A program made the position numbers and the translations under genes. From positions 1-44,640 of IMG/VR virus record IMGVR_UViG_3300043570_002521: DNA of 44,640 nt; one strand, given 5' to 3'. The notes beneath the pieces are model-generated. The model was not told the origin of the DNA. It saw only the letters and a program-made list of their open reading frames with translations, and ran no database searches. Source of the stretch: a virus. Of this stretch, positions 25,279 to 44,557 are shown in pieces (the first letter of the stretch is position 1; every line of letters begins with the position of its first letter).

Positions 25279-26952
25279 TTAACTTTCTTTTCTTAATGAA
25301 CCGTCATAATGTTCAAATCTATCGTGTTCCGTTGGTGTTAATAACAATAATCCCGGATTAATTTTTCCTTTAACAGTTTCTTGATAACAATAAGACATTA
25401 ACGTCTGTTCAAATGGGTGAGCCCATTTTGTTTCTAAATAACACTTATAGTTACCTTCTCTTGTTAATATTATCGGCCAATTACATAAATAAACTTCCCC
25501 TGTCGCATATGATAACCCTTTATATGTCCTTATCTCCTTAAATTGTGTTTTAGGTGAATTAGGGTCTAGTCCTTGAACCGGTAATTTAGGGTTATTCGGC
25601 CAATGAGATTGTCTAAAATCTTGAGGGACATTATACCAACTCCATTGAACACTATTATCACCAAAAAATTCACTAAAATTTAATTTAAGAAAATCAAAAT
25701 TTTCTTTTTTAACAATCTCTACTGATTTTTGATATAATTTATCAACAAAACGAGGGAACCCATTTCTACATACCTCACCTTTTTTTGGATAAAAAGCCAT
25801 ATCGTCTTCAAACCACCAATAACAATCTAAATCAGTTTCATCAAAATGTTCAGCAACAAACACTCTCCCCCCGACAATACCAATGTTGTCTTTTTTAATA
25901 TGTTCAAAACCATATTGTTCACATAGTTCAAGATATCTTGGTGTTGTTGATAAATCGGTTGAGTTATCTAATAAGAATTTTTTTGGTTTATCAATAAAGT
26001 CAGAATCATAATCTAACATAGATTGGATTAATACCTCAAATTGTTTAGGTGAGTTAAATGCTATAACATACAATCCAACTTTGGATGTGTCTAAACTATT
26101 CGGTTTAATTGGTAAAACACTTTCTTTAACTTGAGTCGTGTTATTTTTTAAGTCCTCAAAAAATTTACCCATTAATCCATTATCTTCTATTTCTGAATAA
26201 CTAATCAACTCAGGGTATTTGTATGTCATAATTGTAAATAACGATTCTTCAGTTCCCATTAACCCTTGTGATAATGTATCATTCATTAACCCGTAATAGA
26301 TACCGTTAATATCTGATATAACATCTTTTCTTCCTCCGAAGAAACCTGCTCGAGCAACCATTTTAACTGGTTCTCCGGCTAATTCACATAATTCAGGATA
26401 TTTAAATCCGTGGATTTCAGAATTAGTTTCATAAGGGAAACAAACAAAATGAAAATTTTTAACTAATTGAGGTAATTTATCTAAAACCTTATCGTGTGTA
26501 AAATATCCCGGGTGAATTGTATTTGTTAACCCAGCGTCAATCCAAAACATATATTCTGAATTAAACCTATCTAAAATTTTAGCATCGTGTAGGAGATAAA
26601 TTTTTGACATAACCAACGGGTTATACATCTCTAATTTAGCTTGAGTTGAATCGGTTAACCATCCGACTTGATTATACCAATCCGGATTTGTTCTTATATT
26701 TTGTATTTTATCAAAAAAATCGTTGTCTTTAAACCAAGACAAACTTCTACGAACAAATTGTGTGTTTTCACTTCGTCTATTGTTTGACACAAATTTCTCT
26801 AACTCTTCGTCACCAAAAATAATCATATTCACATCAACTTGTAATAGTTGTTGAAATTTATCTAAATAATGTTGGAATGAACGAGACCAACCCTCTTGAA
26901 GGTCTCCTCTACCTATATCCCATAATCCTGTCACTAATGTTACTTTACTCAT
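25279..26952 (-). CDS. Two-domain glycosyltransferase (HtrL/YibB-type plus GT-A type)
   Basis: The 557-residue protein has two sugar-transfer parts. Residues 1-270 match the HtrL/YibB family: T-L-V-T-G-L-W-D-I-G-R-G at the start, I-F-G-D-E-E-L, Y-N-P-L-V-M-S-K, and F-W-I-D-A-G-L-T-N-T, followed by G-G and E-E/S repeats. Residues 290-557 look like a GT-A fold with G-L-Y-V-I-A-F-N-S and a W-W-F-E-D-D-M motif in the metal-binding place, and a C-terminal H-P-F-E-Q-T. Two sugars could be added by one protein. It overlaps the previous gene with an ATGA join and is the last gene of the glycosyltransferase run. Confidence 0.7.
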   Translation of the reverse strand: MSKVTLVTGLWDIGRGDLQEGWSRSFQHYLDKFQQLLQVDVNMIIFGDEELEKFVSNNRRSENTQFVRRSLSWFKDNDFFDKIQNIRTNPDWYNQVGWLTDSTQAKLEMYNPLVMSKIYLLHDAKILDRFNSEYMFWIDAGLTNTIHPGYFTHDKVLDKLPQLVKNFHFVCFPYETNSEIHGFKYPELCELAGEPVKMVARAGFFGGRKDVISDINGIYYGLMNDTLSQGLMGTEESLFTIMTYKYPELISYSEIEDNGLMGKFFEDLKNNTTQVKESVLPIKPNSLDTSKVGLYVIAFNSPKQFEVLIQSMLDYDSDFIDKPKKFLLDNSTDLSTTPRYLELCEQYGFEHIKKDNIGIVGGRVFVAEHFDETDLDCYWWFEDDMAFYPKKGEVCRNGFPRFVDKLYQKSVEIVKKENFDFLKLNFSEFFGDNSVQWSWYNVPQDFRQSHWPNNPKLPVQGLDPNSPKTQFKEIRTYKGLSYATGEVYLCNWPIILTREGNYKCYLETKWAHPFEQTLMSYCYQETVKGKINPGLLLLTPTEHDRFEHYDGSLRKES

Positions 26953-27515
26953 ATTGTATCTCTAATTTTATATATTATTTTATCAACAAATTCATATTCC
27001 ATAATTTTGGATAAGTCTTCGTAAAATAACCCATCCCCGAATACGTCTTCTTGAAACATTGGTAAATTTTTAGTATTAGGAATGACACCCATACATTTAC
27101 CAATATTCCCTAGTGTTACTTCTTTTGTCGTCCAATTAATTGTTCCTCCCCATTTATGTTTAAAAATGTATAGTTTTTTTTCTGTAACGACTTCCCTTAT
27201 ATACTCAAAGGCATCATCAACATAATAATCATCGTCGTCCGCAAACATAATAAAATCACCGTCAAGGTTATTAATGTGTTTGTTTAATAAAGGGTGTCCA
27301 AACTTACCTAATCTATCCCCATCATTTATAATGTGATTTAATTTAAAATTAACATCATAATTAGATAAAACATTTTGAACAAACTCGTGATTTGTATCGG
27401 ATATTATGGTAAAAGAATCGTTTTGGGTTAACTGATTTTTAAAACTATCAATCAATCTTGGTAATGATTCTCTTCCAATAGTTGTGCAAACAATGTTAAA
27501 AGAATAGTTAGACAT
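26949..27515 (-). CDS. GT2-type (GT-A fold) glycosyltransferase
   Basis: From the start at 27515 the protein has 188 residues. It begins S-N-Y-S-F-N-I-V-C-T-T-I-G-R-E, a typical nucleotide-sugar-binding strand, and has a F-A-D-D-D-D-Y-Y motif near residue 90, the metal-binding D-x-D of GT2 enzymes. I prefer the ATG at 27515: it overlaps the stop of the upstream gene by a few bases, as the other genes of this operon do. The open frame upstream reaches an ATG at 27548, which would overlap the neighbour by about 40 bases. The sugar and acceptor are unknown. Confidence 0.7.
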   Translation of the reverse strand: MSNYSFNIVCTTIGRESLPRLIDSFKNQLTQNDSFTIISDTNHEFVQNVLSNYDVNFKLNHIINDGDRLGKFGHPLLNKHINNLDGDFIMFADDDDYYVDDAFEYIREVVTEKKLYIFKHKWGGTINWTTKEVTLGNIGKCMGVIPNTKNLPMFQEDVFGDGLFYEDLSKIMEYEFVDKIIYKIRDTI

Positions 27516-28353
27516 CATATTTCTCATCAATTTTATATTTGTCGACATCCAATAAATCCATAAGGTCCAATATCCCTCTTTGTAAATCTAACCAATCACC
27601 AAAATTAAAAAATTTAACGTCATTTGTGTGAGTTAATATAGATAAAACCTCTTGTTCACTAATTAATTTACCTGTTGTTGTGTAATATGTTTCAAAAATC
27701 GATAAGTAATTAGATAAAACTTTTTGAATAGACTCACTTGTCCCTCCAAACATACCTCCGGGAACTAACTTAAAGTCTGTGTTAAACATATTAACAAGAA
27801 CTGCTTTTAATTCGTAATTAACCTGAATTGATTCTCCTCTTAAACAAATAAAACCATTCTCAGATATTTTTTCATTTATTTTATTTAAAAATAATTCTGA
27901 ATGGGCAAAAACATTAATGTAATCTCTCCATCTATCGTGACAACTAGTTCCAAAAAGTCCGGAATCAATCCACACAACATTTTTATTATCTTCACACTCA
28001 TCGAGTAAAAATTGTAACTTATTAAAAATAACTTCTACATAATTTTTAACACAATAAATTCTATCGTAAATTTCCCCTTCGGCAAATTTAACTAATCTAA
28101 TTGGGTTTATGTTGTTTAGGTAATTTTCAGAATTTAATTCGTGAAACTTTATGGTTACATTTGGTTGGTTAAATTGTTCACCTAAATGATATTTGTCGTA
28201 AGTGTATTGATTAGTGTAAATAACATATTCAAAACCTTCAAAAATTATACTACGTAATGTTTGGGTTAATAATGGATATGATTTATATACCATACCACCT
28301 CTGGAATCTTCATAGTTTAATTCATAAACTGATGTAATAATTTTTAATACCAT
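27508..28353 (-). CDS. Probable glycosyltransferase, HtrL/YibB-like
   Basis: The 281-residue protein starts L-K-I-I-T-S-V-Y-E-L-N, has G-F-E-Y-V-I-Y-T-N-Q near residue 42, then N-V-V-W-I-D-S-G-L-F-G (the D in the metal site), and later V-P-G-G-M-F-G-G-T and a S-E-Q-E-V-L helix. This order (W-I-D-x-G, then G-G-x-F-G-G, then an E-x-x-x motif) matches the N-terminal domain of the two-domain gene downstream. The role is sugar transfer; target unknown. It overlaps both neighbours by about 10 bases, so translation is coupled in this operon. Confidence 0.6.
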   Translation of the reverse strand: MVLKIITSVYELNYEDSRGGMVYKSYPLLTQTLRSIIFEGFEYVIYTNQYTYDKYHLGEQFNQPNVTIKFHELNSENYLNNINPIRLVKFAEGEIYDRIYCVKNYVEVIFNKLQFLLDECEDNKNVVWIDSGLFGTSCHDRWRDYINVFAHSELFLNKINEKISENGFICLRGESIQVNYELKAVLVNMFNTDFKLVPGGMFGGTSESIQKVLSNYLSIFETYYTTTGKLISEQEVLSILTHTNDVKFFNFGDWLDLQRGILDLMDLLDVDKYKIDEKYDV

Positions 28354-29051
28354 TTGTCGTGATTGGGGATTAATAAGTTTATGTGTTTGCTAGAATTGTT
28401 TTTTAAGTCAACACCGTTATGTAATGCTGAGAAACACATTTCATCTATATTACCCGCAGGTATATTATATAAATTGTCAACATATTTAATCTCAATACAT
28501 TCATCCCAAGTTTTTAAAAATGAATAAAATTTATCTTTATCAATATCTAAAAATTGAATGCAGTCTTCCGGCATCCACATATCCACTTTATTATATTGAA
28601 CGTCAAATTTATTTTCATAATGTAAGTATCGTCTTCCTAACATACTATTTGTCTCAACCTCTTTTTCAAAAAGATAGGTTACTTGACCGGCAACACTATT
28701 AGGTATAAAACACTCTAACACATTTTTTTTTGTGAATAATGATTTGTTTGGTATAACATCCGTATCTGTTAAAATTACTTTAGTAAATCCACTATCTAAC
28801 GCAAATTTTACTGAGAATCTTTTAACTGAAAAATCAAAATCATAATAATTCGTATTATATGTCACATATTTTTCATTATATTCCTTAATATGTGAAACAA
28901 ATACATAATCTTCTTTAGTAATTGATTCCGGATTATCTGTAACTATGAAAATATTTGGTTTATCTTCAAATTCTTTAAATGATTCTATCATTCTATTTGT
29001 TTGGGCATAATATCTATCACCATAACAAAATGTTGCTATCGCATATTCCAT
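28344..29051 (-). CDS. GT-A-fold glycosyltransferase (GT8-like)
   Basis: The 235-residue protein starts E-Y-A-I-A-T-F-C-Y-G-D-R, has I-F-I-V-T-D-N-P near residue 34, and V-I-L-T-D-T-D-V-I-P-N near residue 91, the D-x-D motif of GT8-type and related retaining enzymes. Later G-R-R-Y-L-H-Y and I-P-A-G-N-I-D-E-M are similar to acceptor-site segments. The Thr in D-T-D is a usual variant. It lies 4 bases after the GT60-like gene and overlaps the following gene. The C-terminus, after residue 210, is short, and no membrane segment is seen. Confidence 0.65.
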   Translation of the reverse strand: MEYAIATFCYGDRYYAQTNRMIESFKEFEDKPNIFIVTDNPESITKEDYVFVSHIKEYNEKYVTYNTNYYDFDFSVKRFSVKFALDSGFTKVILTDTDVIPNKSLFTKKNVLECFIPNSVAGQVTYLFEKEVETNSMLGRRYLHYENKFDVQYNKVDMWMPEDCIQFLDIDKDKFYSFLKTWDECIEIKYVDNLYNIPAGNIDEMCFSALHNGVDLKNNSSKHINLLIPNHDKWY

Positions 29052-29055
29052 ATTT

Positions 29056-30303
29056 TTACAAATTACCTGTTATTCTTTCACACCAACCTTTTGACTTACT
29101 AAACGGCCAAACAACCCAGTATTTTGGTTTATGAACAGTTTGGAAATCTCTCCAAACTTTACAATACCCATCAGGGTCTCTCATCATATTATTAATCTCA
29201 TTGATATCAGCATCTTTTCTAAAAAGTGTTTCATCTTTTTCATCGTGGAAAGCAACAACCCAAAATTCGTAATCTTTTTCAGGAACTTGAGAAAATCCAA
29301 TGTCGATACAATGTTTAAAGATACTAGCGTAACTTGCCAACCATTCTTCCTCAGTTTCAAATATTTGAGGATTAGGTGCGTAATTTTTATCTAAAGTATA
29401 TTGTTGAACAGCTCTATTTGAAAATTTAAGACCTGAATAAATTTCATAATCTTTTAAAGTTCTTTCAGTTCCGAACCCGTAAAAACTAAAGTCCATTGTA
29501 ACGTCTTCACCGTCCATACCAAATAGTTGACGATTCTTTTTATGAGATAATTCATTTTTCTTACCCCACTCTTTATCATCATCCCATTGTTTGGTTCTAC
29601 CCTTACGAGTATATTCGTGCCAAATAACAGTTTTGTGTGGGTGAAATAAATCGTATCCGTGTGTAAATGCTCTAACAGCGATTGAGATTTCTTCTCCGTG
29701 GAAATAGAATTCAGGGTCGTGTTGAACCTCGACACTAAATTGTCCCAATGTAAATGCCATATGGGCGGAGTAAAATCTTGAGGTAACGGGTTCTTTAAGA
29801 TTTTCCCACCCCGGAATTGTTTCAGGTAAAAAGAAGACGGCACCTTCCGGTATAAATCTATCAAAAGCCATTCTCCAAGGTTCTTTAACTCTACTTGCCG
29901 GGTCATTGTCCGGGTCGAATGAAGAAACATAACCTGTTAGTAAAGGTTTCTTAAATCCTTTCTTTTGAAGTTGTTTAACCATTTTGATTAGGGTGTCGTC
30001 CCAATCTTTTTCAAATCTCATATGAGAATCGATTTGTAAGGTATATTCTTCACCTTTATATAGTTGTTGAACTTGGTTTCTTGCCCAACAAACCCCTTTG
30101 GATTCGGTGTATAGAACATCAATAACTCTAAAACGTTTATCACCTTTGAATTCTGATAAATTATCAAAACCATCTTCCGGATGATATTGACGACAAATAC
30201 CGATTACTAAATTTTTAGGTTTCTTTGCATTCTCCAACATTGATTTAATTGTTGGGATAAGTTGGGGGTCACGATAGGACGCAATTTGGACAAATATCTT
30301 CAT
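29056..30303 (-). CDS. GT60-like glycosyltransferase (polypeptide GlcNAc-transferase type)
   Basis: The 415-residue protein shows the pattern of the GlcNAc family (GT60), known from the Dictyostelium Skp1 enzyme Gnt1 that puts GlcNAc on hydroxyproline and from relatives acting on threonine. Seen are I-F-V-Q-I-A-S-Y-R-D-P (residues 3-13), G-I-C-R-Q-Y, S-K-G-V-C-W-A-R-N-Q-V, L-Q-I-D-S-H-M-R-F (the D-S-H metal site), H-G-E-E-I-S-I-A, and T-V-I-W-H-E-Y. The length fits the catalytic domain without a membrane anchor, so it is cytoplasmic. It is the first gene of a five-gene glycosyltransferase run and follows a fibre gene with Pro-Thr stretches. A sugar on Pro/Thr of the phage fibres is an attractive but unproved target. 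Confidence 0.75.
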   Translation of the reverse strand: MKIFVQIASYRDPQLIPTIKSMLENAKKPKNLVIGICRQYHPEDGFDNLSEFKGDKRFRVIDVLYTESKGVCWARNQVQQLYKGEEYTLQIDSHMRFEKDWDDTLIKMVKQLQKKGFKKPLLTGYVSSFDPDNDPASRVKEPWRMAFDRFIPEGAVFFLPETIPGWENLKEPVTSRFYSAHMAFTLGQFSVEVQHDPEFYFHGEEISIAVRAFTHGYDLFHPHKTVIWHEYTRKGRTKQWDDDKEWGKKNELSHKKNRQLFGMDGEDVTMDFSFYGFGTERTLKDYEIYSGLKFSNRAVQQYTLDKNYAPNPQIFETEEEWLASYASIFKHCIDIGFSQVPEKDYEFWVVAFHDEKDETLFRKDADINEINNMMRDPDGYCKVWRDFQTVHKPKYWVVWPFSKSKGWCERITGNL

Positions 30304-30356
30304 TTAATATCTTTTTATTGTAAAAATAATATTTTTTATAAAAAGATAAATAGAAA

Positions 30357-32999
30357 TTATATTCCACCATCAATAATTGTCCAACCATACGTTCCGGTTA
30401 GAATTGCTCTACCGGCTGAACTACCGGCAGTATATTTAATTGTTCCAAAATTAATGTTAATTCCAGAGGTTAATGTTGGTAAAGAACTCCATCCATTATA
30501 AATTGCGTCAAGATTTGTTGTTGAGTAATCACTAAATGTTTTACCATTCATAAATCCATTAAAGTTTGTTACGCCGGTAACGTTCCAAGAACCAATATTT
30601 TGATTAAATCCTACTGAACCAAACATATTTGACATATTAGTCACATTACTAACGTTCCAAGAACCAATAGGTTGATTGAATTGTGTTGCTCCGTTAAACA
30701 TCTGTTGCATATTTGTTACATTACCAACGTTCCAACCACTAATATTTTGATTAAAAATACTACACGTAGCAAACATTAATCTCATTGTTGTAACATTAGA
30801 AGTGTCCCAACTAGTTATATTACCATCAAATGCGTAATCAAACCAAAACATATAATCCATATTAGTTACTGAACTTACATCCCAAGAATTAAGGTTTTGG
30901 TTGAATATTGTGTTAAAAAAGAACATACCTTCCATAGTTGTAACATTTGATACATCCCAAGAATTAATATATTGATTAAATGGGGATAAACTAAACATAT
31001 AATTCATATCTGTAACATTACTTACATTCCATCCCGATAATGGTTGGTTAAATGATGTTGATTGATAAAACATATAATCCATTTTAGTAACACTACTAAC
31101 ATCCCAAGAATTAATTGGTTGGTTAAATGGTGTTAAAGGGAACATATCACCCATATCAGTAACATTATATGTTGTCCAACCACTAATCATTGGTGAACCA
31201 CCGTTATTAAATGATGTGCAACCATTAAAAGTTCCTTTCATATTAGTAACACTACCAACATTCCAAGAACTTAAATTTTGGTTAAAAACGGTATTTTGTA
31301 AGAACATATAACTTATAGATTGAACATTTGATACATCCCAAACACCAATTGGCTGATTAAATAAATAAGTGTTATCAAACATTGCTCCCATATCAGTAAC
31401 ATTACTAACATCCCAACCTGATATGTCGTCATTAAAATTATGACACTCAAAAAACATACCTTGCATATTTGTTACGTTTGATGTGTTCCAAGAATTTATA
31501 AAAGGGACTGTTGTTAAATTAGTACAATTCTCAAACGTATAAGATAAATTATTTGTTCCCGTTAAATCTAAAACATCGGTAACATTTGATAATGATAAAT
31601 TATTACAATTAGAAAAATACGAACCACTATTACCCAAACGTAAACAACCCCACTGTAGAACTTCTCTAATTTTATTTCTACTAATAGGGTTAACACCAAA
31701 CGACCACCCAATTAATGTCCCTGTTATTGTTATTATATAATCACCCGGAGTTACATATGTGTGTGTTCTATTATCGTAAATATTATTAGAGGTTTCCCCA
31801 TCACCCCAATCAATTGTTCCATAATAAAACCCCGAAGTTTCATATGGTAATGTAATTGATTCGTTTATAGTTGTTGTTCTCCAAACAGAGATAAAGGATG
31901 GTGGTATAACAGGATTACAAGTTTGATATTTAACACATACCTCACAAAAAATGTATGTTGTTCCGTGGTCCCAAAAATCGGTTACCCAAGTCACAATTTT
32001 AGATACACTAATAATTTCTAAACACTCACCAAATGAATTGACAACCGCAGTTCCCGGTAAAAAGTTAGACGGTAACATAATATATTTTATAATCTTTTTA
32101 GCACAACAAGATTGAACTTGGAACAACACATACTTAACAGGTGTTGTTGGTGTGGGAGTGTGAGTCGGAGTTGGTGTAGGTGTATGAGTCGGAGTTACCG
32201 ATGGTGTTATTGATGGTGTAGGTGTTGGTGTGGGTGTTGATGTTGGACACGGATAGATAAAATTGGCTTTCTGACAATGGTAAATACTCGGTTGAGAACC
32301 CATCGCAATAAATGAATAGAAATTGTTTGTAGATGAACTAACAACATAAGTGGCACATCCAATGAAACCACTACTTTCAATATAATACGCTCCTGACAGA
32401 GGACTAAATGATATTGGTATGTTTGATAAGGTAAATTGGTTTGATGAATCACAACTATCCTCAAAATAACCAACTATCGGTGGTAATGTTGGAGTGGGTG
32501 TCGGAGTGGTGGTTGGTGTAGGTGTTGGTCCGGGGCAAACATCCCCAACACAAATATTAGATGAAACCTGAATTATTAATCCACTATCACCATACGGAAA
32601 TTGACCACAAACATATAATGTGGTTGCCGAGTAAATCTCACCATAGATTAATGTCCCGTCACATTGAGTATACCCAAAATTTAATGTTACCCCTAAAGGG
32701 TTATCAATTGAGATACAATTACAAACGGAATTTGTTGGTGTGGGAGTGGGTGTTGTCGTTGGTGTTTGACTAGGAGCAGGTTCACCACAAAAATGATATT
32801 GAATTTCTTCACAACCAATGTTATCTGTGACTATCACTAAGACTTCTTGAGAACCTGATAATTCTGTTGGTATGTTTAGAATTAACGGGACTGATGAGAC
32901 AGCTGTCGCAACAACATAACAATACGTTCTTGTTATATCACATATTGATATGTTATATGGGGAATGTCCGGATAAACTTGTGATTTCAATTACTTGCAT
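30357..32999 (-). CDS. Fibre/adhesin-type protein: Pro-Thr linkers, PKD-like domain, BspA-like repeats
   Basis: The 880-residue protein is a chain of modules. A small beta domain (residues 1-75, with a C-x-x-x-x-x-x-C pair) is followed by Pro-Thr linkers near 75-90, 155-178 and 250-290 that separate two Cys-containing small domains. Another Cys-rich part spans about 290-365, then a PKD-like domain at about 365-440 (G-T-I-D-W-G-D-G-E-T, then T-H-T-Y-x-x-P-G-D-Y). Residues 440-830 are BspA/DUF285-type repeats of about 24 residues (core F-N-Q-x-I-x-x-W-D-V-S-N-V-T-x-M-x-x-M-F). BspA-like proteins bind surfaces or host molecules, so this is probably receptor binding. The next genes are glycosyltransferases. 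The gene has a promoter-like motif at 33017-33023. Confidence 0.75.
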   Translation of the reverse strand: MQVIEITSLSGHSPYNISICDITRTYCYVVATAVSSVPLILNIPTELSGSQEVLVIVTDNIGCEEIQYHFCGEPAPSQTPTTTPTPTPTNSVCNCISIDNPLGVTLNFGYTQCDGTLIYGEIYSATTLYVCGQFPYGDSGLIIQVSSNICVGDVCPGPTPTPTTTPTPTPTLPPIVGYFEDSCDSSNQFTLSNIPISFSPLSGAYYIESSGFIGCATYVVSSSTNNFYSFIAMGSQPSIYHCQKANFIYPCPTSTPTPTPTPSITPSVTPTHTPTPTPTHTPTPTTPVKYVLFQVQSCCAKKIIKYIMLPSNFLPGTAVVNSFGECLEIISVSKIVTWVTDFWDHGTTYIFCEVCVKYQTCNPVIPPSFISVWRTTTINESITLPYETSGFYYGTIDWGDGETSNNIYDNRTHTYVTPGDYIITITGTLIGWSFGVNPISRNKIREVLQWGCLRLGNSGSYFSNCNNLSLSNVTDVLDLTGTNNLSYTFENCTNLTTVPFINSWNTSNVTNMQGMFFECHNFNDDISGWDVSNVTDMGAMFDNTYLFNQPIGVWDVSNVQSISYMFLQNTVFNQNLSSWNVGSVTNMKGTFNGCTSFNNGGSPMISGWTTYNVTDMGDMFPLTPFNQPINSWDVSSVTKMDYMFYQSTSFNQPLSGWNVSNVTDMNYMFSLSPFNQYINSWDVSNVTTMEGMFFFNTIFNQNLNSWDVSSVTNMDYMFWFDYAFDGNITSWDTSNVTTMRLMFATCSIFNQNISGWNVGNVTNMQQMFNGATQFNQPIGSWNVSNVTNMSNMFGSVGFNQNIGSWNVTGVTNFNGFMNGKTFSDYSTTNLDAIYNGWSSLPTLTSGININFGTIKYTAGSSAGRAILTGTYGWTIIDGGI

Positions 33000-33016
33000 A
33001 AACTATTCATTATTTA

Positions 33017-33023: not shown

Positions 33024-33030
33024 GTCCTAA

Positions 33031-33531
33031 TTAACCAATTGAAATTACTAACCCATTTTTAATTACAACAGTTAATCCATCAACGGTTTTAAATGTAGTT
33101 GTTATACCGGAAAAAATAGGTTCTTCATTTTGGTTAATAATTAACTCTTCCGAATAAAGAGTGTCTGATGGTATATAAATTTGTTGATTATCAATATCGT
33201 CTAATGATAAAGCAACAAATGCGTCATATAAAAAATAACCTAAATCAAATTGATTGTTGTCAAATTCACTTCTTGTTGATTTAAAATTTTTATATACTTC
33301 ATCATTTAACGATAAACGTATTTCGATTGCATCCCAATTCTTACAATCGGAAATCCCATTTTGTGTTTTTATTGCGTCTAACACAATAGAATTAGAAACG
33401 TCATTCAATAGATTTTTAACTGAAATACTATCCATTGTATTAATATCCCTTCTCATTATTAAAAGACTATTTATTTCTAAAATATTTTGATATAAAACAA
33501 TCGTCAAAAAATTCCAATTTGTATATTCCAT
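33031..33531 (-). CDS. Unknown protein (166 aa) in the fibre block
   Basis: No family is recognised. The protein has a helical N-terminal half, a stretch D-A-I-E-I-R-L-S-L-N-D-E-V-Y-K, and a beta-rich C-terminal third (residues about 115-166) ending in V-V-I-K-N-G-L-V-I-S-I-G, which could be an adaptor or assembly domain. The ATG is 1 base from the stop of the preceding 1340-residue fibre gene (TAATATG), so I keep it; internal Met codons at residues 26 and 33 are other possible starts. A fibre-assembly chaperone or connector is a guess only. Confidence 0.4.
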   Translation of the reverse strand: MEYTNWNFLTIVLYQNILEINSLLIMRRDINTMDSISVKNLLNDVSNSIVLDAIKTQNGISDCKNWDAIEIRLSLNDEVYKNFKSTRSEFDNNQFDLGYFLYDAFVALSLDDIDNQQIYIPSDTLYSEELIINQNEEPIFSGITTTFKTVDGLTVVIKNGLVISIG

Positions 33532-36500: not shown

Positions 36501-37555
36501 TTAGATGGTCCAAAAATATTAAAAGTACCACCTGTACTATTTGTAAAAATAGTGTTGCCTTGGAAATATGTTCCTCCGGTAATAAAAACGTCTTTTGGTA
36601 AATTATAATATGTTGTTGCCGAAATTGTGTTTGCGGTTAAACCATCTGTAAATATTGTTGCTCCCGTTACTGTTCCTCCTGATAATGGTAAGAAAGGTGT
36701 TGCAGGCAAATTTTGATATGTTGTTGCGGAAATTGTGTTTGCAGTTAAACCATCTGTAAATATTGTTGCTCCCGTTACTGTTCCTCCTGATAATGGTAAG
36801 AAAGGTGTTGCAGGCAAATTTTGATATGTTGTTGCGGAAATTGTGTTTGCAGTTAAACCATCTGTAAATATTGTTGCTCCGGTCACTGTTCCTCCTGATA
36901 ATGGTAAGAAAGGTGTTGCAGGCAAATTTTGATATGTTGTTGCCGATATTGTGTTTGCAGTTAAACCATCTGTAAATATTGTTGCTCCCGTTACTGTTCC
37001 TCCGGTAAATGTTTGAAGAACTCTCCAAGAAGCGTTTGTATCGTCATAACCATTAATACCTGATATTGTTGATGCCGTCCAAGCATTAATTAACACAATA
37101 CCTTCAGGTGAGTTATTTTTAACCGTTGTTCCAAAATTTGATATAACTACTGTAGAACCCCCCGGACCTGTTGCTCCGGTAGCGTTGTTCCATAACGTAT
37201 CATAATTATCAATATTGTATTGATATATTTTTTTGGTTTCATAAACATAAACTAACATCCCTAATTTTCTTCTACCTGAAGAAATGTTGTCAGAATTTAA
37301 TGTTAACACATTAGGTGAAAAAATTTGACCCGTCCCAATTTGTAACTGAACCGGAATCGTATTACCGGAATATTCAACTAAACCTTGATAACCGTTAGGG
37401 ATTATGTAATCTAAATCGGTTAAATTGTAAACTTCCATATACCCCCCTGTTTGAAGGATACTGAAATTTGTTCCAAATGTTGCGTTATTACGAACAGAAG
37501 GATTACCTAATGATTTTATAGGTGAAACTGGTATGTTATTTAAAAAATTACTCAT
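33533..37555 (-). CDS. Large tail fibre protein with tandem 36-residue repeats
   Basis: The 1340-residue protein begins with a short anchor-like part and a collagen-like scrap (G-A-T-G-P-G-G). Residues about 180-320 hold four near-identical 36-residue repeats (core L-P-L-S-G-G-T-V-T-G-A-T-I-F). Further copies or parts occur at about 680-715 and 800-880. Residues about 900-1135 form a concanavalin/LamG-like domain almost the same as the one at the end of the 1972-residue fibre. The last 180 residues are a beta domain rich in Thr/Val, perhaps the tip (A-I-D-V-A-L-V-V-D-G, then I-H-T-V-E-V-D). The L-P-L-S-G-G-x-x-x-G repeat is widespread in tail fibres. It is coupled to the genes on both sides. 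Confidence 0.75.
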   Translation of the reverse strand: MSNFLNNIPVSPIKSLGNPSVRNNATFGTNFSILQTGGYMEVYNLTDLDYIIPNGYQGLVEYSGNTIPVQLQIGTGQIFSPNVLTLNSDNISSGRRKLGMLVYVYETKKIYQYNIDNYDTLWNNATGATGPGGSTVVISNFGTTVKNNSPEGIVLINAWTASTISGINGYDDTNASWRVLQTFTGGTVTGATIFTDGLTANTISATTYQNLPATPFLPLSGGTVTGATIFTDGLTANTISATTYQNLPATPFLPLSGGTVTGATIFTDGLTANTISATTYQNLPATPFLPLSGGTVTGATIFTDGLTANTISATTYYNLPKDVFITGGTYFQGNTIFTNSTGGTFNIFGPSNYDPGVISGNTGWSSNNDGSINLPQITVALYDNPNFFEPLKFYSISSGTTGVGSLPALINNDTNYIIIEYNNGVPRYNVLDNEGTVDFSSILLYMIVYRTNNFIHVLEFGDEGAGLPSKLNERIVYTDRFARESGCSLGLSGSTGIVTLSSGVVWNATNRQIVNDTTSLGLFFRNFHSGGTWVYTTTANTINNLYYDNGTDLVSATAGKYLVNWYFRGQELNDHLYEVVSDGQFDNILLADASSEPNLPELITSHTFLVGRIIIEVSATTGITQSAFSSVFQPSGAPGVHNDLTNIQGGLPNQYYHLDSNKYNNLALTNIDNNFSAGQTFASGLTATTISATTYQNLPPTPFLPLSGGTVTGQVILKNNSSPLIITTDNYSPGISGNILFYGDITGSTNGKSISSRSNGGGNPGNLILQELGNGNVGVNTNVVNPILNFNLDVNGTFGATSVSATTYFNLPATPFLPLSGGTVTGATNFTGGLTATTISATTYQNLPPTPFLPLSGGTVTGATIFTGGLTANTISATTISGGTVVLNSTNLPSTPIAVSAFTDDYNRVTLSPGGSPSLTYTNTNTGAGNATITASTYLNIANGNPAGQSYTTVPLSGFNSPFNPTLSLNTVNVEWSFNLRTNRNTIFPGFSAGTYGAAVVLAGTSGTLLNTGNGYALVYGGTGTRNWRLVRYTSGLFGTRTDIISGGVFAAGTNYVSARIVYTPSTNTWTYYFRDDGAVAWGDPTTVTTLIGSAVDSTYTSSLMSSLGVFFNYSTAANQNLQFDNLVVKLNSPSVFTPQSYLTLKNYANTEVFDVKDDGSVTSTGLISSTGGISGTTISGGTYFGNGSALTLGQFGTMITGSTSLLVTNTTTLLTLIPGLTTTITVPTQTMVCIQTNGGVNTVGTTTTSGSAIDVALVVDGIILPNGGYQRMYADNPTGNATVGNWVANWNMSVIITLSAGIHTVEVDTATVQGQNATVSGGFGAINQGTLTIMILKNT
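34150..34860. repeat. Concanavalin-like domain copy 1 (of 2)
   Basis: This segment of the 1340-residue fibre gene encodes about 235 residues highly similar in protein and DNA to 38645-39350. Shared marks are F-T-D-D-Y-N-R, W-S-F-N-L-R-T-N-R-N, N-G-Y-A-L-V-Y-G and W-T-Y-Y-F-R-D-D-G-A. Confidence 0.9.
36603..37010. repeat. Four tandem 108-bp coding repeats in the large tail fibre gene
   Basis: Units begin near 36630, 36738, 36846 and 36954 (period 108 bp, 36 residues) and are almost identical. Diverged copies lie at about 34914-35150 and 35419-35520 in the same gene. Confidence 0.9.
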
Positions 37556-37556
37556 A

Positions 37557-38624
37557 TTATTGTGTTATGGTATTACCTCTAAAATAAATATTATTGTTAT
37601 CGGTAATGTTAAATATTATGTTAGGATATGTTGTATAAACTCGGTATGTTGTTTGTGGAATTGTTGTTCCGGTGTAGGTAAATGTATATGTGTTAATTGC
37701 ATCTTCAGTATATATATTTGTTAATAAATTAGAATCATTACTTTCATTAAAATCAATAATTGTTTGTCTTCCATTATTAGTTAATGAAATTGGGATAATC
37801 CAAATATACCACCCTAAACCACCAACATAACCTTGCAACACTTCGGTTGTTAAGAAATTATAGGCAACTATTGGGTTACCAAAACTATCGAGCCCTCCTG
37901 AAATTTGAGGAACCGTTTGACTAATTATTGGTGGGAACTCACCACTAGTCCAACCACTGAAATCAACATATTTGTTCATATCAATATTAAATTGTGTTTG
38001 GTCTTGTGTTGGTTGTGTATTGTTTGTAAAACCAAAGAAATTAGAACCACTATCATACATCCATTGACCAATACTTTCAGACCCACTTACAGGTTCAATA
38101 AATAACTTAGCATAATATACCGGAGTTGGTGTTAATGTTGGTGTTGGTGTATTTGTCGGAGTGTGTGTATTGGTTGGTGTTTGTGTTGGTGTTGGTGGTA
38201 TTGGGGCGTAACATCCACATGGGTTCGTACAAGTCTCCGTAGGTGTTATTGTTGGGGTCGGTGTGGTAGTTGGTGTAGTGGTGGTTGTTGGTGTTTGTGT
38301 AGGAACTTTACAAGGGTTGAAAGAAGGAGTTGGGGTTAGTGTTGGTGTAGCTGTCGGTGTTTGAGTGTTTGTAACAGTCGGTGTTGGTGTTGGTGTAGGA
38401 GTAGGAACCGGAACATTCATAATAACAGGACAATCCGCCCCCTCAACTAATATAGTGTAAACACCATATACATTACGAGGTGGTGTTAATAATGACGGAT
38501 TAAACACATAAGGTAATATTTGATTACCTAAATTTATAACCACATTAACACCGTTAGGTTTAAACAAAATATTTGCAACCTCCCCACTATAATTTATACT
38601 TTGTATCGTTATTGTATTTGACAT
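37557..38624 (-). CDS. Fibre-type protein with shared N-terminal domain and Pro-Thr stalk
   Basis: Residues 1-70 are homologous in pattern to the start of the LCIB-like protein at 23426-24499 (G-x-x-A-N-I-L-F-K-P, N-L-G-N-Q-I-L-P, Y-G-V-Y). Residues about 72-170 are almost all Pro, Thr and Asn, interrupted by two short Cys-containing pieces (N-P-C-K-V-P and N-P-C-G-C-Y). The C-terminal domain (residues 172-355) has W-M-Y-D-S-G-S-N, Q-F-N-I-D-M, G-W-Y-I-W-I-I-P-I-S and beta strands to the end. It looks like a virion protein with an anchor, a stiff stalk and a head. It lies between two large fibre genes, 1 base from the next and 14 bases from the previous. Confidence 0.6.
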   Translation of the reverse strand: MSNTITIQSINYSGEVANILFKPNGVNVVINLGNQILPYVFNPSLLTPPRNVYGVYTILVEGADCPVIMNVPVPTPTPTPTPTVTNTQTPTATPTLTPTPSFNPCKVPTQTPTTTTTPTTTPTPTITPTETCTNPCGCYAPIPPTPTQTPTNTHTPTNTPTPTLTPTPVYYAKLFIEPVSGSESIGQWMYDSGSNFFGFTNNTQPTQDQTQFNIDMNKYVDFSGWTSGEFPPIISQTVPQISGGLDSFGNPIVAYNFLTTEVLQGYVGGLGWYIWIIPISLTNNGRQTIIDFNESNDSNLLTNIYTEDAINTYTFTYTGTTIPQTTYRVYTTYPNIIFNITDNNNIYFRGNTITQ

Positions 38625-38638
38625 ATTTTATTTTTTTG

Positions 38639-41600
38639 TTAACCTGTTATTAATACCCTTAAATTATCAAATTGTAAATTTTGATTTGCCCCTGTTGAAT
38701 AGTTAAAGAACACACCAAATGAACTCATTAATGATGAGGTATACGTACTATCAACCACACTACCAATTAACGTACTTACAGTTGTTGGGTCACCCCAAGC
38801 AACAGCACCATCATCTCTAAAATAATATGTCCAAGTATTTGTTGCCGGAGCGTATACAATTCTCGCACTAACATAATTAGTGTTTGCCGCGAAAACACCT
38901 CCCGTAATTATGGTGGTTTGTGTTCCCGCTAAACCACCGGTATATCTAACAAATCTCCAGTTTCTTGTTCCCCCACTACCATAAACTAATGCGTATCCGT
39001 TACCGGCATTTTGAAGGTTAGTTGTTGTACTTGCTAATACAACTGCTCCTCCGTATGACGACGCAAGAAATCCTGAGAATATGGAGTTTCTATTTGTTCT
39101 TAAATTAAACGACCATTCAAGTGTTCCACTATTACTCGACAATGTTGGGTTAAATGGTGAACCAAATCCTGAAAGAGGTACTGTGGTATATGACTGTCCC
39201 GCAGTACCACCGTTTGCAATATTTACATAAGTTGATGCCGATATTGTTGCATTACCCGTACCAGTATTTGTGTTTGTATAAACTAAAGATGGTGTTCCAC
39301 CCGGAGATAATGTGGCTCTATTATAATCATCAGTAAATGCTGAAAAAACAGTCGGTGTTGAAGCCGATGTTGGTGTAGGTGTTTGTGTTGGTGTAGGTGT
39401 GTTGGTTAATGTTGTTGTTGGTGTTTGAGTCGGTGTTTCAGTTAATGTTGGTGTTGGTGTAGGGGTTTCCGTATTAGTTGGTGTTGGTGTAGGGGTTTCC
39501 GTATTAGTTGGTGTTGGTGTTGGAACAATAAATATACCACCATCTGTTATTGTCCAAGCATAACCTCCACTTCCGGTTGAACCTGTAAGGATAGCTTTTC
39601 CTGAGGAACCTGTTGATGTATAATTGGCTGAACCAAAATTAATTGTTACTCCTGTTTTTGGGTTTTTTGTGGACCATCCATTATAAATAGAATCTAAATT
39701 TGTTGTCGAGAATGTTGCTGGTGTTTTTCCTAACATAAAATTAGTAAAATCGGTTACACCTGAAATATTCCAATTTCCAATATCTTGGTTAAATTGTGAA
39801 TCACTAAACATTTGGTACATATTATCAACTTTTGAAACATTCCAACTCGAGATATCTTGGTTAAATTGTGAATTTTGAAACATAGCTCTCATATTAGTAA
39901 CACCCGAAACATTCCAATTATTTATAGGTTGATTAAATTGTGACCCATAAAACATTTGTTGAGTGGAAACAACTTTTGAAACATTCCATCCTGACAATGG
40001 TTGATTAAATTGTGAATCTTGAAACGCTGCTACCATATTAGTAACCTTTGATACATTCCAATTTCCAATAGGTTGGTTAAATATTGAATTACCAAACGTA
40101 AAAAACATACTTGTTACATTTGAAACATTCCATCCCGATAATGATTGATTAAATGAGGTGTTACCATTAAACATCGCACTAATACTAGTTATACCGGACA
40201 TATTCCAATTCTCAATTGGTTGGTTAAATGTACCACTATCAAACATACCCTGTACACTAATAACTTTTGAAATGTCCCAATTTCCTATTGGCTGATTAAA
40301 TTGTGACCCTTTAAATATTTGTTGTAAATTAACATTTGAAATATTCCATCCGGATAATGGTTGGTTAAATTGACTACCATCAAACATATTTTGCATATCG
40401 GTTACACCTGAAACGTTCCAATTTCCAATAGGTTGGTTAAACTGACTATTTTGAAACATTGAACGCATACTTTGAACTTTTGAAATATCCCAATTAGCGA
40501 TTGGTTGATTAAATGGTCCATTAGAACTTGAAAACATTCGCTCCATAGTTGTTACATTTGAAACGTTCCAACCACTAATATCACTATTAAATTGAGTGTT
40601 AAAAAACATACCATACATACTTGTAATACCAGAAACATTCCAATTATTTACATTATTTATTGTTGATAAATTGTTACAACTAGTAAACATTCCTTGTAAA
40701 CTTGTTATACCACTTAAATTTAATGTATCACTAACATTTGTTAATGACAAATTACTACAATTACTAAATTGACTAGTGGTTCCAACACCTAAATTAAAAT
40801 AAGGTCCCCACTGTAATATTTCGTAAATATTACCATAACTTCCAAAGTAATTACCGAAACTAAATTTATTAATTAAACCATATATAGTCACAGTATAGTA
40901 TCCCGGTGTTGTATATGTGTGAGTTTTATTTGCATTTGTGTTTGCTGAGGTACTTCCGTCCCCCCAATCTATAGTTCCTGAATATGTTCCTAAAGATGAA
41001 TAAGGTAATATTATTGATTCTGAAGCGGATGTTGTTCTCCAAACAGAAACAAATGGTGGTGGTGGTGTTGATGATGGGGTTACTGTTTGTGTTGGTGTAG
41101 GTGTTTGAGTCGGTGTTTCAGTTAATGTTGTTGTTGGTGTTGGTGTATTTGTTGGGGTTTCAGTTGGTGTATTTGTTGGTGTTTCTGTATTAGTTGGTGT
41201 TGGGGTTTGTGTCGGAGTTTGCGTAGGTGTTTCTGTGTTAGTTGGTGTTTGAGTAGGTGTATTTGTTGGAGTTTCAGTTGGTGTTTGAGTCATTGTTGGT
41301 GTTGGGTTTGGTTGTGGGCAAACATTAATATTTACCACTTCTCCTATATTGTTTACATAAAAATAACCATCATAAAAGTTATAATATCCTTGAGAAAGGA
41401 GTGCTCCTCTATTATTTGTATATATTATACATCCTACTGTTATTGCAGCTAAACATGCTGCAGAGGTGTAGGAAGTAATAGGTGTAGGAAGAACAGATGG
41501 TGTACAAGGAGTACCAAGCCCCCACGAAGATAGATTAATTGTAACTAAAGATGGTGGTGTTGGAGTAGGTGTTGAGGTTGATGTCAAAGTAGGTGTTGGT

Positions 41601-44557
41601 GTAGGTTGTGGGCATACATCTATATTTAATACTAACCCTTCCTTATCGATATACAATAGTCCTGGTGTTCCATCCCATCTATTGTAATATCCTTTCTCAG
41701 CATTTTCTGTTCCTTCTGAATCAAGATACAAGTGACATCCAACAGTAATAAAATCAACACACGATTGTTCTGTATATAAAGTAATTAAACCTAATAAACA
41801 AGAAGTCTCACAAGGTATGCAACCTTCATAAGAAAATAAACCTTGTATTAAAACTAATGGTATAATTGGTGTAGGGGTCGGAGTTGGTGTTAAGGTATTT
41901 GTTGGAGTATTAGTTGGAGTTTCTGTAATAGTCGGAGTTGGAGTGTTTGTCGGAGTTTCAGTTAAGGTTTGAGTTGGTGTTTCAGTTGGAGTATTAGTCG
42001 GAGTTAAGGTTTGTGTTGGTGTTATGGTATTAGTCGGAGTTAAGGTTTGTGTTGGTGTTATGGTATTAGTTGGAGTTACGGTATTAGTTGGTGTTATGGT
42101 ATTAGTTGGAGTTACGGTATTAGTTGGTGTTGGGGTTGGTGTTGGTTGGATTAAAATTATTTCCCACGTACTTCCATTCGGAGTTCCCGATAATTGACTA
42201 AAAAATGGTTCCCCATTATAGTTGTTATAATCTTCATTTATTGTAACAATAGTTTGTCCTGATAAATCCCCTAAACTAACCGTAACACCAGTAAATATTG
42301 TAATCGGAGTCCCACTATAGACATTTAGAACATTTTCAAAAGTAACATTTATTTCTTCACTATATGAACGGTTCAATACTAATCTATAATACGCAATTAT
42401 AGAACCCGGTGTATATTCCACGAAAAGGGTTAAATTTAATGGTTCTGATGTGGGTGTTGGTGTTTGAGTATTGGTAGGTGTTGGAGTAGGACCATTAATC
42501 ACATATGTAAAATCATCAACCGGACAGAAATTTTCACCACAATCAGGGCAATCAGGATTAAACATATCAAACGTATCTTTTAATAATTTAAAATTATGTT
42601 TAACTTCGTCTGATGATAATGGCTCCACATACATTCTGAATTGAGATATACCCCCATCAAATGTTCCACCAAAATTTTGTTCTAATAATATATCAGTCGT
42701 TAATCCACTAAACGTTGTTCCTAACAAATCGTTAGTTGGTAAACATTCCGGGTCTTGGATATAAGTTGTTCCGGTAATTGCCGAGAAAGTTAAATTTTCT
42801 CTTAAACCTTGGGTTCCACCACCCCACGAAATATTATAAGGAACACCGACTTGTTTTTCCTTATCTGTGGATAATGCTCTTGGGATAATTTCCTCAATAT
42901 CTTGAAATGTGTGGAATATTCTTCCATTAATGTATATTTTTAATCTTCCTTTTCTAAAATCCTTATCAATCAACCATTTCTCATTTAGATTAACCAAATC
43001 AATTTGTTGTGGGTCAGTCCCACAAGTTTGTGTATATGGAACAGTGATTAACTCTTTTGAGTTATTTGCTAATCCATCTAAATATTTTTTCTCCGTGATA
43101 TCTCCAATACCCCCTCTATACCATAAGTCACAAGTGTCTAACCAAGTATATCTCTCCCAAACGGCTGTAATATGAAACCAATGTTCCATATCTAAATAAC
43201 TTGGATTAACTTCTAAACAATAAGGATAAATTGGTGGTGTACAATAATTGTCTATAGTGTATCCTGTTGTGTAAGTAATTCCTGTTGTTGAACAACTTCC
43301 ACTAGTCTCACATCCTCCGGTAAATCTTAGTAATCTAACACCAATTTGAGGGTTATGTGGGTCACCACATAATTTAAATGATAATGCGTTTGACATTGAA
43401 TCAAACAATGGGTCACTCTCACAAGTATTCTCAACTGAACCCGGAGTTACATTACAATTATCACAAGTTTGACAATCGTTACAAGATATACATTGTACAC
43501 AAGTACATCCCGCAGTACAAGCCGTGATTGGTTCGCAATTTGAAGGGACCGGTATCGGAGTTGGTGTTGGAGTTGGTGTTGGTGTAGGTAATGGACAATC
43601 GTGTATTTTATATTCCCAACCACAACTAATACAACCATCACAATCCGCTTTAGTTGGTCTAGGTGGATAAACATAGATACATCTACTATTAACAACAGAA
43701 TTATTACAACAAGCACAAGTTGTTAAACCTGTGACCTCTGAGGTAACTCTAGTGTAACCGGTAAAACATCTTGGGTGTCCGTCGGCGTAATGATAGAATT
43801 TATTTTCAGCACGAGCCCCAAAGTAAAAGAATATATCTTTGTTGTTTGGGTAAATCTCATTTAAGGTTGTTTCACCTAACGATGGAGTATATTCGTTAAT
43901 TAATCTTGGTTTTAACAACATTTCAACCGACCATCCTTTATTCATTCTTTCAGGAAAAATGTTATAGTCATAACCAAATAATCTATAGAACCCTTGATAG
44001 AATCCACCATAAAGTTCGTGGTATCTACCTACACTATCATTTTTACTAACAACCTCATATAATATTGTGTCATTAAAACCTGAGAATCTAACATTAGAAC
44101 TAGTGTATCCTGTAACTTGAAATAACTTTAATCGTCTATCAAAAGACAATCTATTGAATTTGGTGTAATCATTAATACCGTTTGTAAATGTGATTGACTG
44201 TCCCGTCATTGATTCCACCAACCCATTGTCAATCCCGGTTAAACCAATATCACAAGATGTATTAGCGGTTAAACAAAATAAATCAACATTATCAGGGTTG
44301 TAATAGTTTTTAGAAACAAAAAGATTATTGAAGTTATAGTTTTTATAGTATAAATCAATTTGTTGTGCAGAAATTGGGTTATTAATATCAAAATTAATAG
44401 GTAATTTATTACCATATGTCTCGGCAATTAAATAAGGGGAAAAAACAACCTCTTCTTTATAGTTTCTTTCATCAGTAGATAATGATATATCACTAACGTC
44501 TAACGCTAATTTTACACCCCAATTTGGTTTCGGAAATTGATTTATATTTTGACTCAC
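38639..44557 (-). CDS. Giant multi-domain fibre/adhesin protein (1972 aa)
   Basis: The start is GTG at 44557, 20 bases after a TATTTAT motif. Domains in order: an N-terminal LamG/concanavalin-like domain (residues about 150-690) broken by a very Cys-rich insertion (about 280-400); Pro-Thr stretches at about 322-332, 690-702, 806-896, 981-1000, 1082-1162 and 1677-1734; a beta domain (715-800); two related Cys domains (about 900-985 and 1000-1085, each ending V-N/D-I-x-x-C-P-Q-P); a PKD-like domain (about 1164-1249, G-T-I-D-W-G-D-G-S-T); BspA-like repeats (about 1250-1612); and a C-terminal concanavalin-like domain (1736-1972) nearly copied in the fibre at 33533-37555. Its role is probably receptor binding. 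It overlaps no neighbour and is the first gene of the fibre run. Confidence 0.75.
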   Translation of the reverse strand: MSQNINQFPKPNWGVKLALDVSDISLSTDERNYKEEVVFSPYLIAETYGNKLPINFDINNPISAQQIDLYYKNYNFNNLFVSKNYYNPDNVDLFCLTANTSCDIGLTGIDNGLVESMTGQSITFTNGINDYTKFNRLSFDRRLKLFQVTGYTSSNVRFSGFNDTILYEVVSKNDSVGRYHELYGGFYQGFYRLFGYDYNIFPERMNKGWSVEMLLKPRLINEYTPSLGETTLNEIYPNNKDIFFYFGARAENKFYHYADGHPRCFTGYTRVTSEVTGLTTCACCNNSVVNSRCIYVYPPRPTKADCDGCISCGWEYKIHDCPLPTPTPTPTPTPIPVPSNCEPITACTAGCTCVQCISCNDCQTCDNCNVTPGSVENTCESDPLFDSMSNALSFKLCGDPHNPQIGVRLLRFTGGCETSGSCSTTGITYTTGYTIDNYCTPPIYPYCLEVNPSYLDMEHWFHITAVWERYTWLDTCDLWYRGGIGDITEKKYLDGLANNSKELITVPYTQTCGTDPQQIDLVNLNEKWLIDKDFRKGRLKIYINGRIFHTFQDIEEIIPRALSTDKEKQVGVPYNISWGGGTQGLRENLTFSAITGTTYIQDPECLPTNDLLGTTFSGLTTDILLEQNFGGTFDGGISQFRMYVEPLSSDEVKHNFKLLKDTFDMFNPDCPDCGENFCPVDDFTYVINGPTPTPTNTQTPTPTSEPLNLTLFVEYTPGSIIAYYRLVLNRSYSEEINVTFENVLNVYSGTPITIFTGVTVSLGDLSGQTIVTINEDYNNYNGEPFFSQLSGTPNGSTWEIILIQPTPTPTPTNTVTPTNTITPTNTVTPTNTITPTQTLTPTNTITPTQTLTPTNTPTETPTQTLTETPTNTPTPTITETPTNTPTNTLTPTPTPTPIIPLVLIQGLFSYEGCIPCETSCLLGLITLYTEQSCVDFITVGCHLYLDSEGTENAEKGYYNRWDGTPGLLYIDKEGLVLNIDVCPQPTPTPTLTSTSTPTPTPPSLVTINLSSWGLGTPCTPSVLPTPITSYTSAACLAAITVGCIIYTNNRGALLSQGYYNFYDGYFYVNNIGEVVNINVCPQPNPTPTMTQTPTETPTNTPTQTPTNTETPTQTPTQTPTPTNTETPTNTPTETPTNTPTPTTTLTETPTQTPTPTQTVTPSSTPPPPFVSVWRTTSASESIILPYSSLGTYSGTIDWGDGSTSANTNANKTHTYTTPGYYTVTIYGLINKFSFGNYFGSYGNIYEILQWGPYFNLGVGTTSQFSNCSNLSLTNVSDTLNLSGITSLQGMFTSCNNLSTINNVNNWNVSGITSMYGMFFNTQFNSDISGWNVSNVTTMERMFSSSNGPFNQPIANWDISKVQSMRSMFQNSQFNQPIGNWNVSGVTDMQNMFDGSQFNQPLSGWNISNVNLQQIFKGSQFNQPIGNWDISKVISVQGMFDSGTFNQPIENWNMSGITSISAMFNGNTSFNQSLSGWNVSNVTSMFFTFGNSIFNQPIGNWNVSKVTNMVAAFQDSQFNQPLSGWNVSKVVSTQQMFYGSQFNQPINNWNVSGVTNMRAMFQNSQFNQDISSWNVSKVDNMYQMFSDSQFNQDIGNWNISGVTDFTNFMLGKTPATFSTTNLDSIYNGWSTKNPKTGVTINFGSANYTSTGSSGKAILTGSTGSGGYAWTITDGGIFIVPTPTPTNTETPTPTPTNTETPTPTPTLTETPTQTPTTTLTNTPTPTQTPTPTSASTPTVFSAFTDDYNRATLSPGGTPSLVYTNTNTGTGNATISASTYVNIANGGTAGQSYTTVPLSGFGSPFNPTLSSNSGTLEWSFNLRTNRNSIFSGFLASSYGGAVVLASTTTNLQNAGNGYALVYGSGGTRNWRFVRYTGGLAGTQTTIITGGVFAANTNYVSARIVYAPATNTWTYYFRDDGAVAWGDPTTVSTLIGSVVDSTYTSSLMSSFGVFFNYSTGANQNLQFDNLRVLITG
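38645..39350. repeat. Concanavalin-like domain copy 2 (of 2)
   Basis: This is the C-terminal domain of the 1972-residue fibre, paired with the internal copy at 34150-34860. The different place in the two proteins shows the domain moves as a module. Confidence 0.9.
39750..40800. repeat. BspA-like repeat array in the giant fibre
   Basis: The minus strand encodes repeated units of about 24 residues (F-N-Q-P-I-x-N-W-N-V-S-x-V-T-x-M). A second array of the same type is at about 30540-31500 in the gene at 30357-32999. Confidence 0.85.
41870..42140. repeat. Longest Pro-Thr coding repeat tract
   Basis: The minus strand encodes about 90 residues built of P-T-N-T/P-T-Q-T steps. Within it, 36-bp units (12 residues, P-T-N-T-I-T-P-T-Q-T-L-T type) are repeated nearly exactly. 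Shorter tracts of the same kind are at 41070-41310, 39355-39525, 38120-38410, 32465-32530 and 32140-32250. Confidence 0.85.

Follow-up and report, generated by a model that had tools for sequence, protein, structure and literature searches.

A candidate phage-encoded O-glycosylation locus: a GT60-type enzyme, exchanged middle genes and Pro-Thr fibre-like proteins in a large water phage

Glycosylated virions are known from a few phages, mucin-type O-glycans from eukaryotes. The Dictyostelium Skp1 enzyme is a GT60 polypeptide alpha-GlcNAc-transferase, and the primer of the serine-rich-repeat adhesins is GtfA/GtfB. As far as the accessible parts of the sources go, a GT60 enzyme of T. cruzi (TcOGNT1) makes GlcNAc-alpha-Thr in mucin-like proteins (PMC9472816), mycobacteriophage glycosyltransferases modify the capsid and tail tube of the virion (Freeman 2023, cited in PMC12619734 and PMC10877033), and in the serine-rich-repeat adhesins of Gram-positive bacteria a repeat protein is O-glycosylated on Ser/Thr by neighbouring glycosyltransferases (PMC6973325), the glycans being strain-specific (PMC6291802). 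The isolated phage XacN1 has at least two glycoproteins, for which its authors suggested phage-encoded glycosyltransferases; according to the same source, available in part, tail fibres were not seen and fibre homologues were not found (PMC5852040). Moraphages are T4-like aquatic jumbo phages of Bacteroidota hosts that carry DnaK/DnaJ and four glycosyltransferase groups among their core genes; DNA, host or virion are given as possible targets of these enzymes, DNA being named first, and in the portion of that paper at hand the word 'proline' occurs 0 times and Pro-Thr tracts are absent from the account (PMC12619734). Our literature search, outside which most subscription papers lie, returned nothing on phage GT60 enzymes together with Pro-Thr fibres.

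The locus considered here lies in a 44.6-kb virus record (44,640 nucleotides, hereafter the window, meaning the whole stretch of DNA that was analysed) with family matches to the tube, sheath and baseplate of T4-like contractile phages. The phage is a large water phage, and a 272-kb record (G001, L437-L450), taken as the same species, matches the GT60 and polB proteins of the window at 100%. A family scan of G001 covered 124 of its 281 ORFs, and the features named here come from 25 of 76 families, among the matches listed. They include Gp23, the T4 portal, HSP70, DnaJ and Clp. G001 also has a second sugar-gene block, in which a GDP-mannose 4,6-dehydratase (E 1e-116) and an epimerase are accompanied by a DegT aminotransferase and two GT2 proteins. 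The presence of Gp23, T4 portal, HSP70 and DnaJ agrees with the moraphages, a likeness in gene content. PAS-domain and SprB-repeat proteins of G001 are also among the matches listed, and the SprB repeats presumably hint at a gliding Bacteroidota host. Further Pro-Thr ORFs of G001 lie at 13.8-25.0 kb (three) and at 140-154.6 kb (five). Two other structural-region genes of the window were also noted. In the tail sheath protein the family match is confined to the C-terminal part and the length of homologues varies from about 600 to 1195 aa, so that a large variable insertion is likely. The N-terminus of the carbonic-anhydrase-like protein resembles, by eye, that of the Pro-Thr proteins, blast connects such proteins in relatives, and possible zinc ligands are apparently retained (by eye); a carbonic anhydrase carried in the virion, if that is what it is, would be odd. 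The features are collected in Table 1. The reading that we favour, at a probability of about 0.6, is that the enzymes of the locus O-glycosylate Pro-Thr stalks of the virion with a glycan that is switched by exchange of cassette genes.

Table 1. Glycosyltransferase run, fibre-like genes and neighbouring structural genes of the window
Feature	Position	Strand	Evidence
Tail sheath protein, 1197 aa	9639-13232	-	sheath family match, C-terminal part
LCIB-type beta carbonic anhydrase domain	23426-24499	-	PF18599, E 4.6e-27; within structural region
228-aa protein, 60-base repeats	24556-25242	-	homologues carry Pro-Thr tracts; no family match
557-aa conserved closing enzyme, two GT-A-like domains	25279-26952	-	PF09612 (HtrL_YibB), E 2.6e-17, residues 3-252; model; domain matches
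199-aa middle GT2-family enzyme	26949-27548	-	PF00535, E 4e-6
281-aa middle protein, probable HtrL-type glycosyltransferase	27508-28353	-	hhalign to HtrL-type domain of 557-aa protein, probability 92.9, E 4e-7, 120 columns
235-aa middle protein, glycosyltransferase-like by motif only	28344-29051	-	hhalign links to cassette proteins
415-aa GT60-type enzyme, proposed O-glycan primer	29056-30303	-	PF11397, E 2.5e-70; fold; D92/H94
880-aa fibre-like protein, proposed acceptor	30357-32999	-	TPT 18; PF03382, E 7e-125
166-aa protein of fibre-like block, no tract	33031-33531	-	no family match
1340-aa fibre-like protein, 108-base repeats, no Pro-Thr tract	33533-37555	-	TPT 0; repeats
355-aa Pro-Thr protein, proposed acceptor	37557-38624	-	TPT 18, shuffle maximum 8
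1972-aa Pro-Thr protein, DUF285 repeats, proposed acceptor	38639-44557	-	TPT 64; PF03382, E 6e-97

The first-pass annotation had described a tight run of five glycosyltransferase genes, with six domains and overlapping starts and stops, between fibre genes. The run is real, and in gene order its last three joints overlap by 10, 41 and 4 bases, whereas the first is a 4-base gap. Three of the five proteins are glycosyltransferases by family and one by profile, but the 235-aa protein is one by motif only; family, structure, hhalign and motif evidence for each protein makes four domains firm, one probable and one motif-only, so that a total of six is plausible. The run does stand between fibre-like genes and a gene with tract-bearing relatives: in minus-strand order the fibre-like genes, from the 1972-aa to the 880-aa one, are followed by the five small genes of the run, the 228-aa gene, whose relatives often bear tracts, and the carbonic-anhydrase-like gene. 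That description did not include the bacterial relatives, the replacement of middle genes, the conservation of the last enzyme or the nucleotide-sugar genes at other places in the genome. In PHROGs, four of the five enzymes had no match. The 235-aa protein matched no Pfam family even at E 10; it carries the glycosyltransferase-like motif LTDTDV, and its hhalign partners are other cassette proteins only, which are unannotated in the matching stretch. No Pfam match was obtained for the 281-aa protein either.

The first enzyme scores 238.1 bits against PF11397 (GlcNAc), for which the curated cut-off is 21. Its predicted structure is of moderate confidence (pLDDT 75.6), and when the PDB chains ranked highest by Foldseek were given a second look, mucin-priming polypeptide GalNAc-transferases filled all of the first 29 places by Z (19.4 to 15.6), RmlT following at Z 15.3, tied with the lowest of the 29; in Foldseek's own ranking RmlT was first and GalNAc-T2 third. 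In this model-based comparison the GT27 enzymes would thus be the nearest solved folds, but identity to them is 11-14%, there is no profile match in sequence, and the sugar may differ; the Pfam matches at 0.001 included no GT27 family, and none of the PDB chains matched a wider GT60 profile (A4) at E 10. Residues D92 and H94, in the arrangement D92-S-H94, do not vary among 18 members from phages and bacteria, and they may correspond to the metal-binding D-x-H of GT27. A PDB sequence search with the GT60 protein returned T7 RNA polymerase and a ribosomal protein, weak matches that make no sense and were set aside. With the known GT60 alpha-GlcNAc-transferases the phage protein has PF11397 in common, and the acceptor in T. 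cruzi, Thr of mucin-like proteins, is what would be expected here; unlike them, it is phage-borne, apparently cytosolic and adjoins a block of exchangeable glycosyltransferases, its activity being a prediction.

The closing enzyme is modelled with higher confidence (pLDDT 87.6) as two GT-A-like domains, of which the first (1-268) resembles the blood-group glycosyltransferase AAGlyB (Z 13.1) and the second (about 288-546; matched over about 283-545) B4GALNT1 (Z 15.8). For the whole protein the first Foldseek matches were the collagen-modifying LH3 and mimivirus R699; a PDB sequence search gave one weak match, which was unrelated and was discarded. Of 80 loci, 73 have this enzyme downstream of GT60. 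Three of the other seven end early, and four (L026, L028, L064, L066) continue as far as the 228-aa gene but show no match to the closing enzyme.

That three fibre-like proteins of the window have long Pro-Thr tracts was confirmed, the TPT counts of the 880-, 355- and 1972-aa proteins standing far above the maxima of 4, 8 and 11 in 500 shuffles. In the 880-aa protein the tracts lie between small segments, with DUF285 repeats after them. Over the four short tracts that were scored for codon use (57 residues) the Pro codons are mixed (CCA 13, CCT 6, CCG 5, CCC 2). From their position, these Pro-Thr proteins are probably in the virion. Tandem repeats of 108 bases occur in the 1340-aa gene at 36600-37003 (96% matches) and 34919-35146 (85% matches). 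The end part of the 228-aa gene, which is the place of the Pro-Thr tracts in its homologues, holds a 60-base tandem repeat (24569-24741, 2.9 copies).

The expectation that the run and Pro-Thr fibres occur together in related phages was upheld among GT60-bearing records, but in only a minority of the records chosen for the tract. The motif (Thr-Pro)3-Thr, or (TP)3T, was present in 14/14 and 11/13 GT60-bearing records, 25/27 together, against 0/35 random viral records; the first set comprises 12 of 80 GT60 loci with XacN1 and RAS14, the second was drawn from 17, and the two records lacking the motif there are fragments of 29 and 40 kb. Relatives were also anchored on polB, and were taken from viral contigs because the polB search in annotated phages gave 17 distant matches. 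The 29 records used (of 80; at least 44 kb, chosen regardless of PF11397 or motif, five also in the 14-record set) contained PF11397 in 23 and the motif in 27: both in 23, the motif alone in four, which are fragments, and neither in two. Of the six without PF11397, three end near or before the site. In the other three (L492, L513, L518) the usual cassette site upstream of polB is occupied by different genes, and two of these three are without both PF11397 and (TP)3T. Among 36 polB loci with 9 kb upstream, GT60 was found in 19 and the closing enzyme in 27 within the flank examined. In the opposite direction, records picked for a (TP)5 tract had PF11397 in 10/49 (39/49 without) versus 0/35 random ones (p 0.004), and PF00535 in 17/49 versus 5/35, both sets being records of at least 25 kb (49/80 and 35/80 of the loci listed); 29/49 tract-picked records had neither family, so that the tract does not require these enzymes. 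These Fisher values overstate independence, since many records are close relatives.

It could be argued that the link reflects the shared ancestry of one phage clade and not function, as a single clade supplies most of the loci, the random set has another composition of phages and tracts occur without PF11397. Within 2 kb upstream of GT60 a tract was found in 20/26 non-redundant clade loci, 1/15 of the XacN1 set (marine L356) and 7/60 bacterial loci. Under the strict definition a tract was in the locus in 23/27, 7/15 and 8/73 non-redundant loci respectively, and under a definition loosened after Ser-rich bacterial partners had been seen in 25/27, 6/15 and 12/73, leaving 61/73 bacterial loci with no tract in the flank examined. 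Bacterial tracts were denser near GT60 (10/123 bins within 2 kb, 2/196 at 2-6 kb, p 0.0017), a result in which bins share loci and which is partly post hoc because of that loosening. Nevertheless, the link turns up again among XacN1-type phages, in several bacterial phyla and in L356, where the tract stands directly upstream, and in a quick GT60 tree these recurrences fall in separate places: the window clade beside Bacteroidota, the XacN1 type apart and L356 beside Verrucomicrobiota. Ancestry by itself is an unlikely explanation.

The bacterial loci also bear on whether the enzymes might glycosylate other virion proteins (capsid, tail tube or sheath), the tracts being bare spacers. In a Saprospiraceae chromosome (L358) both outer enzymes (68% and 60%) adjoin a Ser/Thr/Pro repeat protein, and other bacterial GT60s, in Azospirillum, Pseudoduganella, Magnetospirillum, an acidobacterium and Prosthecobacter, adjoin (EPPVTT)n, (ETPAPT)n, (PTTTSA)n or TPTPTP proteins. 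Beside the Saprospiraceae pair and its repeat protein lies an ORF that is sulfotransferase-like by eye (L358:4349-6424, minus strand), and the bacterial glycan there may be sulfated. Three bacterial contigs (L394, L395, L389) start inside a Pro-Thr repeat adjoining a GT60-type gene, and such pairs may thus be under-counted in draft genomes. The pairing of outer enzymes is also found in XacN1-type phages; XacN1 itself has a GT60 homologue (ORF334, 48%) and a closing-enzyme homologue (ORF330, 41%, with its own HtrL_YibB match), and so resembles the window phage in both enzymes, with glycoproteins in addition, but differs in that its tract is not adjacent and its glycosylated proteins are unnamed in the main text, as far as that was available (PMC5852040). 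The tracts located in XacN1 are at the end of ORF325, adjoining baseplate genes. That tracts in XacN1-type phages stand 5-10 kb from the enzymes or elsewhere, that tracts without PF11397 are common (39/49), and that phage glycosyltransferases are reported, in sources seen in part, to modify capsids and tail tubes (cited in PMC12619734, PMC10877033) would suit targets other than the tracts. The mycobacteriophage case is alike in that phage-encoded enzymes act on the virion, and unlike in its targets, which are not Pro-Thr stalks as proposed here. The fold of the 415-aa enzyme is nevertheless like that of a mucin primer, and in bacteria, where no phage virion exists, tracts adjoin GT60-type genes; we hold other virion proteins to be improbable as the targets.

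Between the two outer enzymes the gene content is highly variable. In the 80-locus set there are 1 to 9 ORFs between them, 259 in total, falling into 90 clusters at 40% identity. The Pfam matches listed for the 90 representatives (25 of 52 families) include FkbM methyltransferases (10), GT25 (7), GT2 (5), GT10 (4) and GT34 (3), with one each of GT11, UDP-GlcNAc 2-epimerase, DegT aminotransferase and carbamoyltransferase, and nucleotidyl- and acetyltransferases, singly. Close relatives, on comparison of sequences, keep the outer enzymes and exchange the middle ones. In 69 loci, only 2/52 pairs with GT60 at least 99% identical were without any common middle family, versus 40/56 pairs at 95-99% and 58/66 at 92-95%. 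Five loci (L010, L011, L012, L016, L056) have GT60 97-99% and the closing enzyme 92-97% identical, and among their ten pairs middle sharing is zero in nine and 0.29 in one. The exchange looks like a way to change the sugar coat of the virus. Serine-rich-repeat loci are comparable, as far as their partly available descriptions go, in having a repeat protein with neighbouring glycosyltransferases and strain-varying glycans, and differ in their GtfA/GtfB primer (here PF11397), their accessory Sec export and the absence of a phage. Such variable middle genes also resemble O-antigen loci, and remodelling of host surface polysaccharide, which would block other phages, has been proposed for glycosyltransferase clusters of cyanophages and other jumbo phages, in the accessible part of that source (PMC7824862). 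Against this stand a hydropathic segment (at least 1.8) in just 1/259 middle ORFs, nearly all being without a membrane segment, the absence of flippases, polymerases and ligases from the middle-gene families listed (25 of 52), and a primer of protein-modifying type by PF11397 and fold, which make the host surface a quite improbable target. Hydroxymethylases carry Asp where the thymidylate synthase motif has Asn. Hypermodification of phage DNA is very improbable, for although phage glycosyltransferases often act on DNA, the target named first in what is available of the moraphage paper (PMC12619734), thymidylate synthase occurs in 11/12 large records, with the Asn form in 9/9 motifs read (of 14 loci), and Tet_JBP in 0/12, though the same search was silent in controls too.

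O-glycosylation of the Pro-Thr stalks, the preferred reading, would make the locus a cytosolic, phage-encoded mucin-type system for the phage's own virion. The GT60-type enzyme would add one sugar to Thr/Ser of the tracts, probably alpha-GlcNAc from host UDP-GlcNAc, to judge from family and fold, and the two-domain and middle enzymes would then extend and decorate the primed sugar. Since the outer genes are conserved and the middle ones replaced, the glycans would be expected to differ among close relatives, in the manner of capsule serotypes. Once glycosylated, the tracts may serve as spacers that are stiff, hydrated and resistant to proteases, and variation of the glycan may change which partners the virion binds or is bound by; masking of antigens and sticking to surfaces, also put forward in the first-pass annotation, are guesses. 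That annotation's central proposal of stalk O-glycosylation agrees with the fold, the bacterial neighbours and the XacN1 glycoproteins, but the tract records that are without PF11397 and the distance of the tract from the enzymes in XacN1-type phages do not favour it, and glycan, donor and acceptor site are all predicted. Also against it are the 4/80 loci that run from GT60 to the 228-aa gene without a closing enzyme, and XacN1, a phage reported to have no tail fibres.

A wider proposal, which we put forward tentatively and at a little under even odds, is that bacteria and phages share a mucin-type O-glycosylation, with a GT60-type primer, sometimes an HtrL-type two-domain partner and Pro-Thr repeat acceptors, which large phages have turned into a glycan-serotype locus, a capsule-like switching of coats. 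If true, the finding would bring a mucin-type primer together with mucin-like stalks and an exchangeable set of glycan-tailoring enzymes in one phage locus, and would point to a little-noticed bacterial O-glycosylation pathway. The enzymes would be a source of soluble catalysts for O-glycan making in the E. coli cytosol. For the phages themselves, it would explain why glycosyltransferase genes are part of the core of such jumbo phages, and would make the reason for the diversity of these enzymes testable.
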